Assembly (NCBI RefSeq): GCF_947488135.1
Contig: NZ_CANKYW010000003.1
Location: 1-64,000, forward strand
Reading direction: 5' to 3'
DNA length: 64,000 nt
From: an uncultured Marivita sp.
GTDB taxonomy: Bacteria; Pseudomonadota; Alphaproteobacteria; Rhodobacterales; Rhodobacteraceae
The first letter of the stretch is position 1. Each line of letters starts with the position of its first letter. Below the pieces are notes generated by a model. That model was given only the letters and a program-made list of their open reading frames with translations. It made no database searches and had not been told where the DNA came from. Both the position numbers and the translations under genes were made by a program. This document shows, piece after piece, positions 22,986-28,359 of this stretch.

Positions 22986-23696
22986 TCAGCCGGGTCGCGC
23001 GCTCTCAACGGGTCGTGCGGTCAGGATCCGGTCGTTCAATTCGCGATACAGCTTTCGGGTCATCGCGTCGCGGTAGCCCTCATATCCTTCGGAGGTTTCG
23101 ACAAAGGCGCCATGTCCGTAACGCACCTCGCGATGGAAGTAGTCGAGCACGTCCGCCGATCCGCCAAGAACCGCAAGACCGTTCACGGTGACGTTGGAAA
23201 ACGGGAAGTTCTTGTAGGCCAATCGGGGTGAGAACCCGTCATTGTTTTCACCATCGCCCGACAGGTCGATCACGCGTCGGTCACAGGTCGGACCGCGCGA
23301 CAACAGCGTCGCGCCGAACCCCAACGCATATCCCATGGCGGTGGGAAACCGCGAATGGCTGCGCGGTGCAGAGGTGAGCGATCGGATCAGTCCGTTCAGT
23401 GCCGCATCATCGGTCAAGGCCACCCAATCGCTGACCATGGCGCTCTGGCGGCGGCCGCTCCATTCATAGATGGCGGCAGCTACATGTCCGTCGCCCTCCA
23501 GGATCGCAGAGCGGATCAGCGGATCGTCCAGCGCGGCCGCCAATCCGTCCCGTTGCAGCGCGTATTCTGCGGCATCGACCGAAGACGATACGTCAAGAGC
23601 CAGAACCAGCGCCAACCTGCAATGGTCCTGCGCCTGGGCGGTCTGTGCCAGACCGCCCCAGACCGCCAGTCCCAATGCTACGCACCAGCGCCACAT
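22986..23696 (-). CDS. DUF1194 VWA-like exported protein
   Basis: A 236-residue protein with an N-terminal signal peptide (MWRWCVALGLAVWGGLAQTAQA) and a von Willebrand A-type fold: the MIDAS-like DVSSSVD is at about residues 35-41 (LALVLALDVSSSVDAAEY), with a later IDLSGDGENNDG segment. DUF1194 proteins are predicted periplasmic metal-ion-dependent adhesion or binding proteins of unknown role. The start at 23696 is placed at the signal peptide. It lies 5 bp downstream of the glyoxalase gene and is probably co-transcribed. Confidence 0.85.
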   Translation of the reverse strand: MWRWCVALGLAVWGGLAQTAQAQDHCRLALVLALDVSSSVDAAEYALQRDGLAAALDDPLIRSAILEGDGHVAAAIYEWSGRRQSAMVSDWVALTDDAALNGLIRSLTSAPRSHSRFPTAMGYALGFGATLLSRGPTCDRRVIDLSGDGENNDGFSPRLAYKNFPFSNVTVNGLAVLGGSADVLDYFHREVRYGHGAFVETSEGYEGYRDAMTRKLYRELNDRILTARPVESARPG

Positions 23697-23701
23697 CGGT
23701 T

Positions 23702-24130
23702 TTACCAATGCCCGGTGTTTTCCATGCTGGCCCACGGTTCCTGCGGTGGCAGCGAATCGCCCGCTTGCAGCAGTTCGATGGAAATGTTGTCGGGCGAACG
23801 CACGAACGCCATATGCCCGTCGCGCGGCGGACGATTGATCGTCACGCCATTGTCCATGAGGTGCTGGCACATGTCGTAAATGTTGTCGACGCGGTAGGCG
23901 AGGTGACCAAAATGACGGCTGTCGGATGGCAACCCGTCATCGCCGTCCCAGTTGTAGGTCAACTCCACGGGGCAGTCTTCCTGCCCTTCCGGTGCCATGA
24001 AGATCAGGGTGAACCGCCCCTTTTCATTCTCCATGCGCCGGGTCTCTTTCAGCCCCAGCAAGCTGTAGAATTTCATCGAGGCGTCGAGGTCTTTGACCCG
24101 AACCATGGTGTGCAAATAACGAAGTGGCAT
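23702..24130 (-). CDS. gloA: Lactoylglutathione lyase (glyoxalase I)
   Basis: A 142-residue VOC-fold protein with the four expected metal ligands of the Ni-type enzyme: H7 (YLHTMVRV), E56 (CPVELTYNW), the His in HFGHLAYRV near 74, and the Glu in ISIELLQ near 121. It converts the methylglyoxal-glutathione hemithioacetal to S-lactoylglutathione. Normal length. Followed directly by the DUF1194 gene. Confidence 0.92.
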   Translation of the reverse strand: MPLRYLHTMVRVKDLDASMKFYSLLGLKETRRMENEKGRFTLIFMAPEGQEDCPVELTYNWDGDDGLPSDSRHFGHLAYRVDNIYDMCQHLMDNGVTINRPPRDGHMAFVRSPDNISIELLQAGDSLPPQEPWASMENTGHW

Positions 24131-24200: not shown

Positions 24201-25550
24201 TCAGAACGCGGACCGGATACCCAACTGGATGCCGTAATTCTCGGTCTCATAGAGACCGATATTCGCTTCGGTCCGCTCCGCATTGAACGTGATGGTCGGA
24301 ATGAACCCGTAGAAGTCCATGTCGGGCAGGGCGGCTGTGACGGTCGCCTTTACGCCGCGTTCGTCGCGGCCATCCGGGCTCAGGCCTGACCGTTCATGTG
24401 ACTTGTCCGAGAATGTCAGACCGAAATCCAACAAGGCGGGTCCAACGGGTTTCGCCATCCCGTAATTCACGGAAATCGCGCGCTGTGTGTAGTCCAGATA
24501 GTCGGCATCGCTTTCCGATTCCGAAAAGCTTGTCGACAGCGAGAGCTGATTGCCGTTGGCCAATGCCATGCCGTAGCCAAATCCCGCGCTCCAGATCACG
24601 GCATCGTCGCGGCCGTTTTCGCCGAATTGTTCCTCCCGGTTGAGCGACACGTTGATGAGACCATTCTTTCCGGCCGTTCTGCGATAGGTCGCGCCAAGGC
24701 GGGTGTAGTTCAAGAGCGGGTCCCCGCCATACCACGTGCGCCCCAACCGCGCGTCCCACCCCAGCCGGGAGGCGCCACCCGGCAGAACGTAATCCTCCTG
24801 CAAGCCGACAAAGACAGAGCTGGTGGCGAAATCCGCACCATCTGCATCGGGCGCGATATCCTTGGCGTCGTCCGACAGAACGAAGGTCCGATGCGTCAGG
24901 CCAAAGAGAAGGTTCGTGCGCTTTCGCTCCGAATTGGTTAGCCGGTACCGCGTGCTCAGCCCGGTCGAGATTTCCACACCGGACAGCGCGCGCGCCTCGC
25001 CCTCAAGCGCGAATTCGAAGGGCAAACCGAAAAGCTCGGACGTTTCGTTGCGGCTGCCATTGTTGATGTTGGAGCTTGGCGACACGGAAAATCGCAGCGC
25101 CGTCGCCCAAGGGTTGCGCCGACGGACGTAAGTGAAGTCTCGGGCTGCTTGCGCTTTTTGCGCCTCGGTCGGCGCGATGTGAATCGCACGGCGCAACCAG
25201 AGTTGCGCCGCGGTCCTACGGCCAGAGGAAGAGAGGGCCTGCGCCATCGCCAGCGCGGACGCGTATCGCGCGTCGCTTTCCTCAGCAAGCGCCCAGGCGC
25301 GCCGTGCATGGATCAATGCGTCGTCGTCCCGCCCAAGATCGCGCGCCGCGCGTGACCGGATCAGATGGGCGTTGAGGTCCGTCTCATCCCGCTCGATCAG
25401 CGCGCCGCTCAGATCGTAGGCCAGACCAGCTTGTCCGGCAAACACCGCCTGACCTGCAAGTTCACGCATTTCACTCGGGCTGAGGACAGCCTGAGCGGAC
25501 GCCTGCCCCGCCGCGATGGAGAGACCGAGGAAAACAATTCTCGCAAGCAT
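24201..25550 (-). CDS. Slam-like outer-membrane protein (TPR plus beta-barrel)
   Basis: A 449-residue protein with a signal peptide (MLARIVFLGLSIAAGQASA), helical TPR-like repeats over about residues 25-150 (AYDLSGALIERDETDLNAHL is one unit), and a C-terminal region of alternating amphipathic strands from about 155 that ends IQLGIRSAF with a terminal Phe, the outer-membrane barrel signature. This layout matches Slam (surface lipoprotein assembly modulator, DUF560 barrel). Its ATG overlaps the stop of the upstream lipoprotein gene by 1 bp, so the two products are probably made together. Role inferred: export of that lipoprotein to the cell surface. Confidence 0.75.
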   Translation of the reverse strand: MLARIVFLGLSIAAGQASAQAVLSPSEMRELAGQAVFAGQAGLAYDLSGALIERDETDLNAHLIRSRAARDLGRDDDALIHARRAWALAEESDARYASALAMAQALSSSGRRTAAQLWLRRAIHIAPTEAQKAQAARDFTYVRRRNPWATALRFSVSPSSNINNGSRNETSELFGLPFEFALEGEARALSGVEISTGLSTRYRLTNSERKRTNLLFGLTHRTFVLSDDAKDIAPDADGADFATSSVFVGLQEDYVLPGGASRLGWDARLGRTWYGGDPLLNYTRLGATYRRTAGKNGLINVSLNREEQFGENGRDDAVIWSAGFGYGMALANGNQLSLSTSFSESESDADYLDYTQRAISVNYGMAKPVGPALLDFGLTFSDKSHERSGLSPDGRDERGVKATVTAALPDMDFYGFIPTITFNAERTEANIGLYETENYGIQLGIRSAF

Positions 25551-26656
25551 TACTGCCGGACGGCAATAAAACCGCCAGTTTCGCGTTCTGTCACACCTGG
25601 CTGCCGAGGGTCATCTGTTTCAGTAACAATTATTCCTACGATTTCTCCGCCCGGAAGGCTTGTATGATCGCCAGCCATGACTGCGTAGTAGGCTCCGCTG
25701 GGAAGATTGTTGGTCTGGTCAACTCCCGGATCACCTGATCCGGACAACAGAGTGCCAACATTTTCACCATTTAGGTCTGCAACACCATCGCCGATGAAAA
25801 AGGTAAGCACGGGCATGTTTTGAAATGTTGCTTCGTTGGAAACACCCAGTGCGTCCAAATAGTCTCCGGTTATGTCGGTTCCGTCCGGCAGAAAAATTCG
25901 GCGGTTTGTTATTCGACCGCGTACCGCATTGTCGCATTCTGGAGGTGTGCAATTTCCACGAAAAGCGCTGAAGTCTATGTCAACGGTGGCTTGACCTGTT
26001 GCATATTCCAGTCCGCCGCGCCCGTTAAAATCTCGCAATGCAGCGTATGGTCCGGAGTATGTGCCCTGACCTTCGGAAGGCAGCGTCACCTCCCCATTGC
26101 GCTGATAGATGAATCCTCCGAAACCATAGTTGATATAGGCTCCAGTTCGAACAATCGCGAACTCTGTTTCACCACTCCCGGACACGCCGTAGATGGCTCT
26201 GGTCTCAAACTGCGGAATCTGTGTACCCGTTACAGAATCTGGAAATGTAGGCGGTGCCTCGTACAAAGCATAAGGTCCCAAATTGCCAAACGGTGTGGAC
26301 CGCGTATAGCGTTGACCATCCGGTTGGTCGCCGTCAAACCCCAAGCCGTCGACAAAAAAAGTATCGTCATCGGCGTTGTAACGATATGAGTTTGCATAAC
26401 CGTTCCCCCCGGCGTCACGAGGTTCGCGTCTGACGATTGCGTTGCTGGCTGTCGGCGACTCAGTTCCTGGTGGTAACTCCCGATCACTTTCGATCGGGGT
26501 GTCGTCATCGCCGTCAGAACTGTCGCCGTTGTCAGAACCGTCGCCGCCATCCGGATCGGTCGCTTCATCCGTTGGCGCTTGCAAAACATCACCGCCGCCG
26601 CTGTCGCAAGCGGCCACGAAACCCAAACACAGGATGAGGAAAAAAATGCGCGTCAT
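25550..26656 (-). CDS. Lipoprotein with TbpB-like barrel, candidate Slam substrate
   Basis: A 368-residue lipoprotein. The signal ends in lipobox V14-A15-A16-C17, followed by an Asp/Gly/Ser-rich linker (about residues 18-60), typical of surface-anchored lipoproteins. The C-terminal half has the pattern of TbpB-type barrels: GTYSGPYAALRDF, GLEYATGQATVDIDFSAF, and the closing GGEIVGIIVTE and GGFIAVRQ. An internal pair of Cys (NCTPPEC) may form a loop disulphide. Base composition is visibly lower in GC than the neighbours, suggesting acquisition. The ligand is unknown. First gene of a two-gene unit with the Slam-like barrel protein. Confidence 0.75.
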   Translation of the reverse strand: MTRIFFLILCLGFVAACDSGGGDVLQAPTDEATDPDGGDGSDNGDSSDGDDDTPIESDRELPPGTESPTASNAIVRREPRDAGGNGYANSYRYNADDDTFFVDGLGFDGDQPDGQRYTRSTPFGNLGPYALYEAPPTFPDSVTGTQIPQFETRAIYGVSGSGETEFAIVRTGAYINYGFGGFIYQRNGEVTLPSEGQGTYSGPYAALRDFNGRGGLEYATGQATVDIDFSAFRGNCTPPECDNAVRGRITNRRIFLPDGTDITGDYLDALGVSNEATFQNMPVLTFFIGDGVADLNGENVGTLLSGSGDPGVDQTNNLPSGAYYAVMAGDHTSLPGGEIVGIIVTETDDPRQPGVTERETGGFIAVRQ

Positions 26657-26869: not shown

Positions 26870-27778
26870 ATGCCCCTGTCGCCGGAACAAGATGCCGAAA
26901 TCAAAGAGCTGCGCAGCACGCCGCAACCGACGCTGCGCGCGGTCAGTGAAGGCATGGAGGCGCATCTTTACACCGCCTATCCGGTGCTGGACCACGGGTT
27001 CGTCCGGGTTGTCGATTACATGGGCGACGACGCGGCGATCTGTCAGGCGGCGCGGGTGTCGTATGGCAAGGGCACCAAGTCGGTGCAGAACGACGAAGGG
27101 TTGATCCGCTACCTGATGCGGCACTGGCATTCGACGCCGTTCGAGATGTGCGAGATCAAGCTGCACGTCAAACTGCCGGTCTTTGTGGCGCGGCAGTGGA
27201 TTCGGCACCGGACGGCCAACGTCAACGAATACTCGGCCCGGTATTCGATACTCGACCGGGAGTTTTATATTCCCGCGCCCGAACACCTTGCCGCGCAGTC
27301 GGTGGTGAACAACCAGGGCCGCGGTGCGGCATTGGAGGGCGAGGAAGCGGACCGCGTGCTGCGCCTGCTGCGCGATGACGCGATGCGCTGCTACGATCAT
27401 TACGAAGAGATGATCAGCCAGGACGGCCAACAGGGGCTGGCCCGCGAACTGGCCCGGATGAACCTGCCCGCGAATATCTACACGCAATGGTACTGGAAGG
27501 TCGATCTGCACAACCTGCTCCATTTCCTCCGATTGCGCGCAGATTCGCACGCGCAGTATGAAATAAGAGTTTACGCCGACGAGATTTGCAAGGTCGTCGC
27601 CGACTGGGTCCCGTTCGCGTTTCGCGCGTTCGAGGATTACCGCATTGGGGGCGCGACGTTGTCTTCGACCGCGCTGGATTGCGTGCGTCGGATGCTGAAG
27701 GGCGAGAGTGTGACGCAGGAGAACTCCGGCATGTCCAAGGGGGAATGGCGGGAGTTTGAGGGGTTGTTGGGGAAATGA
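26870..27778 (+). CDS. thyX: Flavin-dependent thymidylate synthase
   Basis: A 302-residue ThyX with the diagnostic RHRxxxxNExSxR motif at residues 112-124 ([13 protein letters not shown]). It makes dTMP from dUMP using methylene-THF and FAD, so a ThyA enzyme may be missing. The 213 bp upstream contain a GGTGGT/ACCACC inverted repeat and a possible TATAGT -10 but no gene. The downstream gene starts within its stop codon (ATGA). Confidence 0.96.
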
Positions 27779-28359
27779 CCGAAACCACAAACAAGCTGCT
27801 CGAGGTTCTTTCTTCGATTGTGAAGCCGAACCACCTTGTTCTCGCTTGCTTCTGCATTTCGACATTGCTTCTGCTTAACCCTTATCGTTTGTCTGAGAAC
27901 CTCGCTATTGCGGAACAAGTCGAAAAATATCGCTTCTACTTTTTCATTGCTTCGTCACTCTTTGGCTTGATCGTCTTATTTTCCCTACTTGAGATGATGT
28001 TACCGACAGTGAGGGCAGTCTATTTTGGCCTGAGAGATCATGTGAAATCGTATATTTTGCCAATAGGAAATGGGGAAAAGGTGTTACTATTGGCAATGGA
28101 GCAAAAAAGGCCGAACTCATTGCGGATGAATACAGAGCATCCGTCTGTAATTGAACTCAGAAAACATGGTCTAATCGAGTATGCGGCGATTTCAATGTCC
28201 AGCGACTTTCAGCATTTCAAACTCACCAGATTGGGATGCCTGACCGCACGCAGAATCAAAACAGAGTTTCTCGGCAGGTTCGATCTCAAAACAGTTTCAG
28301 AGTTTCTGCGAGATGTGACAGGTCTTACCCCTAAAGAAAATCCGTTCCAGCGGCTTTGA
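27775..28359 (+). CDS. AT-rich two-TM protein, SieB-like
   Basis: A 194-residue protein with two N-terminal hydrophobic segments (about residues 20-35 and 53-72) and a soluble C-terminal part. The layout and the N-terminal pattern ([20 protein letters not shown]) resemble SieB-type superinfection-exclusion proteins, but similarity by eye is limited. The gene is strikingly AT-rich and uses codons such as TTA and AGA that are rare in its neighbours, a sign of horizontal transfer. It overlaps thyX by 4 bp, so it would be translated with it. A prophage remnant or defence gene is possible; nothing else phage-like is adjacent. Confidence 0.6.

Follow-up and report, generated by a model that had tools for sequence, protein, structure and literature searches.

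The question raised by this locus is whether two adjoining genes at positions 24201-26656, on the minus strand of a 64,000-nucleotide stretch from an uncultured Marivita sp. (the window, here and below), form a Slam pair, in which a lipoprotein is the cargo and an outer-membrane barrel protein the channel that takes it to the cell surface, and what such a pair would do in these bacteria. We conclude that the two genes very probably constitute a Slam export pair (type XI secretion system, T11SS; DUF560/SlipAM) of the Rhodobacteraceae "cluster 3" type. An earlier note, made from the letters of the window alone, had put forward the Slam reading, which is supported at the family level by a profile match to PF04575, by the combination of a TPR-type domain with a 14-strand barrel, by a cargo-type barrel in the lipoprotein and by conservation of the pair.

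The two open reading frames (ORFs) span 25550-26656 (the lipoprotein, 368 aa) and 24201-25550 (the barrel protein, 449 aa). Base 25550 is common to the TAA stop of the first and the ATG start of the second, which confirms the 1-base overlap proposed earlier, and a TGATG or TAATG junction is also present in 10 of 12 named relatives. The lower guanine-plus-cytosine (GC) content remarked on in the lipoprotein gene is real as well (0.537, with 0.497 at third positions; the barrel gene has 0.620 and 0.731); since the cargo frame is poorer in GC than the channel frame in all 12 named relatives, this need not mean recent arrival. The lipoprotein opens with a signal peptide and the lipobox VAAC (residues 1-17, 26606-26656), a signal peptidase II site recognized by pattern rather than by a signal-peptide program, and Cys17 is found in every one of the 27 aligned cargos, sequences that were themselves partly chosen by the lipobox pattern. 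The long acidic linker described earlier follows (residues 18-64, 26465-26605); rich in Gly and Asp, its 47 residues hold 13 Asp, 3 Glu and 9 Gly, and model confidence is below 50 through most of residues 15-53.

In the predicted structure, an N-terminal handle or effector region (residues ~65-186, 26099-26464), where alignments to hemophilin/HphA begin at residues 71-72, precedes a C-terminal eight-strand beta-barrel of the TbpB/fHbp type (residues ~187-368, 25553-26098), and the model best matches Slam-type cargo structures. The barrel that the earlier note had called TbpB-like is thus predicted, but the likeness does not extend to the whole of TbpB: the 368-residue model contains one TbpB-type module and not two lobes with a handle and a barrel each, and in size and architecture the modeled cargo appears nearer to fHbp or hemophilin. 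Identity to the hemophilin/HphA and fHbp structures (8gmm, 7rea, 8bk2) is 12-17%, and the cargo family has no conserved His. It is reasonable to suppose that the candidate cargo may bind a ligand other than transferrin. We also note that in 22 of 27 cargos the first 13 residues after the lipid cysteine contain an NPF-like motif ([NQS][PS][FLWH]), possibly a sorting or recognition tag. This region corresponds to 26567-26605 of the window, whose own cargo lacks the motif.

The barrel protein matches the earlier description closely. A signal-like stretch at its N-terminus (identified by eye) is followed in the model by seven TPR-type helices (residues 25-145, 25116-25478), forming a domain that would be periplasmic, and by a barrel domain (residues 148-449, 24204-25109) with 14 strands of at least 11 residues (148-447), the chain ending in ...RSAF. 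The terminal Phe is kept in all 28 aligned channel sequences, the window included; these came from the first 30 loci, of which L016 has an internal stop and L021 is cut. Channel identity is 75-79% in 10 named relatives, seven of them Marivita; a close-relative search found no channel relatives in viral contigs, and there were no cargo matches among 72,556 plasmid records. Pfam, NCBIfam and PDB sequence searches with both window proteins returned no significant match, and because such direct searches are weak, family alignments were needed. Compared profile to profile, the channel family matches 14 PF04575 proteins with an hhalign E-value of 3.7e-26, and 22 of its 28 members show a SlipAM domain by sequence at E ≤ 0.01. 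The 14 were drawn from 21 PF04575 places, leaving out L189, L191 and L192 (same class), one sequence interrupted by a stop, two fragments of a single gene and one incomplete sequence.

The pairing itself was followed through a sample of 149 genomes of the family. A channel match is present in 82 of these, strong in 76 (E < 1e-14, a cut-off chosen after the table had been inspected) and weaker in the other six, and a cargo-profile match in 74, all among the 82. The cargo occurs in 73 of 76 strong-channel genomes vs 1 of 73 others (p 1e-37). The profile was built from 27 channel-adjacent lipoproteins, for which the count is circular; outside these training genomes, the cargo is found in 46 of 49, G060 and G061 contributing only partial matches on other contigs. 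The 27 came from the first 30 loci, three of which (L011, L016 and L023) had been missed by the start/lipobox script, and the profile later found a cargo in all three genomes. The cargo is encoded no more than 1.5 kb upstream of the channel, on its strand, in 72 of the 82 strong places (no more than 180 bases upstream in 68 of them). Both flanks are found inside 8 kb at 59 places, and at 55 of these the order is exactly ThyX, cargo, channel, glyoxalase. Of 65 testable barrel frames, 54 begin where a crude lipoprotein-like ORF ends; the same test applied to other frames of the loci succeeds for 10 of 132 glyoxalase frames, 3 of 109 ThyX frames, 0 of 52 aminotransferase frames and 12 of 136 DUF1194 frames. 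Taken with the terminal Phe in 28 of 28 channels, this argues that the layout is not due to chance, and the pairing of channel and cargo is near-obligate. In G001 the family also has a pair of another type, with a distant channel (L147, 2434-3438) and, directly upstream, a lipoprotein that passes the TbpB_B_D cut-off (32.1 vs 26 bits). A profile search of 149 genomes of the order matched 74 of them, each from the same genus or the same family, and was not used further.

Several results weigh against a Slam pair. On its own, the window channel reaches 15 bits where the SlipAM cut-off is 22, and the window cargo matches no Pfam family; direct PF04575 searches found nothing in the organism's own genome, or in control genomes either, and no genome of the same family among those listed at E ≤ 1e-20. 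Position +2 after Cys17 (26603-26605) is occupied by Asp in the window cargo, as in 7 of 27 cargos. In E. coli, Asp at this position favors retention in the inner membrane, and the sorting rule here may therefore differ. Ten of the 82 strong places lack a linked cargo matching the profile (one each in G060, G061, G067, G079 and G140, two in G129, and other-contig pieces in G087, G114 and G133), and G115 has a cargo with no adjacent channel, its only channel match being weak and on another contig. In G067 (L109, 3438-4493), a barrel fragment sits at the usual site with neither TPR part nor cargo, which looks like joint decay; G079 has a smaller, divergent lipoprotein upstream of its channel (seen by eye); and L148 and L149 (G129) and L133 (G140) are channel homologs situated outside the ThyX-glyoxalase site, for which the stretches read include no lipoprotein-like gene immediately upstream. 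Finally, Foldseek ranks the polysaccharide channels BcsC (E 1.2e-11) and PelB (2.2e-8) first for the channel model, as might be expected if the barrel protein were a channel of that kind and the lipoprotein an accessory. We consider this highly improbable: the rows in question have TM-scores of only 0.29-0.39, the model has 14 strands, as does the outer-membrane barrel of Slam, whereas BcsC and PelB barrels have 16, and VIA matches the barrel best to CymA and OmpG, themselves 14-strand barrels. The family profile matches SlipAM proteins, moreover, and the nine neighboring proteins scanned include no polysaccharide gene product. Slam structures are absent from the Foldseek and VIA matches listed for the channel, which counts neither for nor against.

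If the pair is of the Slam type and works like its neisserial counterparts, the lipoprotein would pass through Sec and be acylated at Cys17, and would then cross the periplasm unfolded, in the company of chaperones. The Slam-type protein would recognize it by its C-terminal barrel, and the cargo would pass the outer membrane and fold outside, where the lipid anchor and the flexible acidic linker may present the small N-terminal domain. What this domain might do is a separate matter. By analogy with TbpB and TbpA, the lipoprotein could capture iron, heme or another ligand and pass it to a TonB-dependent receptor, and the predicted cargo fold is indeed shared by TbpB, HpuA and hemophilin. A receptor partner elsewhere in the genome, which the earlier note had proposed to seek, was looked for: one PF00593 protein was found, on another contig and beside a periplasmic binding protein, and its best NCBIfam match is a B12 receptor, below cut-off (221 vs 600 bits). 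No TbpA-type partner was thus found there, and no linked receptor of the sort that accompanies TbpB. Across the sample, TonB receptors (PF00593 at E ≤ 1e-15, counts that depend on this threshold) occur in 41 of 76 genomes with a strong channel vs 42 of 73 without (p 0.74), and no receptor is seen in 35 of the channel-bearing genomes; neither His nor Trp, nor Met apart from the start, is the commonest residue at any position in at least 60% of cargos. As receptors are equally common with and without the channel, a nutrient relay is unlikely to be what the pair does in general. The role we find most likely is capture or attachment at the cell surface, independent of a TonB receptor, a guess that we hold at somewhat less than even strength.

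The genes around the pair offer another possible role. ThyX, a flavin-dependent thymidylate synthase, is encoded divergently at 26870-27778 on the plus strand (PF02511, 1.2e-56); on the other side lie, on the minus strand, a glyoxalase-family gene (23702-24130; PF00903, 2.1e-17) and a DUF1194 (vWA-like) gene (22986-23696, start codon picked by eye; PF06707, 6.6e-63). Beyond ThyX, the ORF at 27775-28359 has a sub-threshold match to the phage superinfection-exclusion protein SieB (23.2 vs 26 bits). Both flanks are carried by 56 of the 73 genomes without a strong channel, and in 53 of these they lie within 8 kb, 43 of them less than 400 bp apart (G115, which holds a cargo, is among the 53); in 55 of 59 strong-channel genomes the gap is 2.4-3.1 kb. 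Being usually side by side where there is no channel, ThyX and glyoxalase look like fixed flanks. As functional partners, they did not clearly pass the presence/absence comparison, and the folate and glyoxalase links discussed in the text of PMC12282271 are best read as links of position. The same text suggested that the channel exports neighboring DUF1194 proteins or works with them, and reports DUF1194 in 102 of 145 loci. Where enough sequence is available to see it, DUF1194 adjoins glyoxalase in 47 of 66 genomes with a strong channel, but also in 37 of 67 without (odds ratio 2.0, Fisher p 0.07), and it does not clearly track the channel on the tree (of four supported pairs, on average 1.2 change the same way, 0.4 the opposite way and 2.4 show no difference). 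The cargo does track it, changing the same way in 4.9 of 5 pairs; neither test has enough pairs for significance, five being too few to reach p 0.05. DUF1194 as export substrate or partner thus seems quite improbable; its association is mostly positional, with a weak excess possible.

That the flanks also occur without the pair bears on how the pair may evolve. Over 51 genomes, channel and cargo distances correlate at 0.533 (partial 0.534, 0/999 permutations), as against 0.009 and 0.069 for the channel with ThyX and glyoxalase and 0.108 and 0.084 for the cargo; ThyX and glyoxalase correlate with each other at 0.311. The near-zero value for channel and ThyX may partly reflect saturation. A ThyX-plus-glyoxalase tree of 114 genomes requires 25 or more changes in presence; this count was made on a quick tree with few supported branches. 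That channel and cargo diverge together and not with their flanks suggests a swappable two-gene cassette, and the simplest reading is gain, loss or exchange as one unit. We tentatively go further, in a proposal we would rate a little below the guess at function above: the Rhodobacteraceae pair may be a cassette for surface display, exchangeable at a fixed site between ThyX and glyoxalase. Its two genes would be swapped, gained and lost jointly by recombination in the conserved flanks, and its cargo would serve as a variable surface receptor or adhesin free of any TonB receptor, perhaps for algal or particle surfaces.

How does this compare with what is known? The text of PMC12282271 (2025) describes, for 11 Rhodobacteraceae/Roseobacteraceae strains, a "marine cluster 3 T11SS" locus with ThyX, glyoxalase and DUF1194 as neighbors; it predicts a cargo with an SPII signal and a C-terminal eight-strand barrel in 10 of 11 annotated loci, gives co-occurrence of TbpBBD in 8 of 145 loci only, and leaves three explanations standing, as well as the question whether the channels have linked cargo. 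The window belongs to the same family group and carries the same genes (ThyX, cargo lipoprotein, T11SS channel, glyoxalase, DUF1194). The earlier note was very probably right to see a Slam pair in a marine alphaproteobacterium, but its occurrence there is not new, the pair having been predicted in related marine bacteria in that paper, whose main text does not mention Marivita. Our literature search found no other paper joining two of T11SS, DUF1194 and Rhodobacteraceae. With Slam1/Slam2 and their cargos TbpB, fHbp and HpuA in Neisseria and others, as presented in the text of PMC5449769 and PMC9090332, the pair has in common a lipoprotein encoded next to a SlipAM barrel protein that bears a repeat domain at its N-terminus; it differs in its identity to PF04575 proteins, 14% across the profile alignment, in its single-module cargo and in lacking a linked TonB receptor.

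The text of PMC12282271, as consulted here, does not state four of our results: a near-universal cargo, found by our profile at nearly every channel; the pair-free sites that show the flanks by themselves; a test in which TonB receptors proved not to be associated with the channel; and the joint divergence of channel and cargo. On the doubt whether the marine group still has a cargo, the comparative data favor a linked cargo lying below library thresholds. The folate, glyoxalase and DUF1194 links now look mainly positional, and a TonB relay is argued against as a general function. The pair would thus be a clear candidate for a surface-display module in a large marine family.
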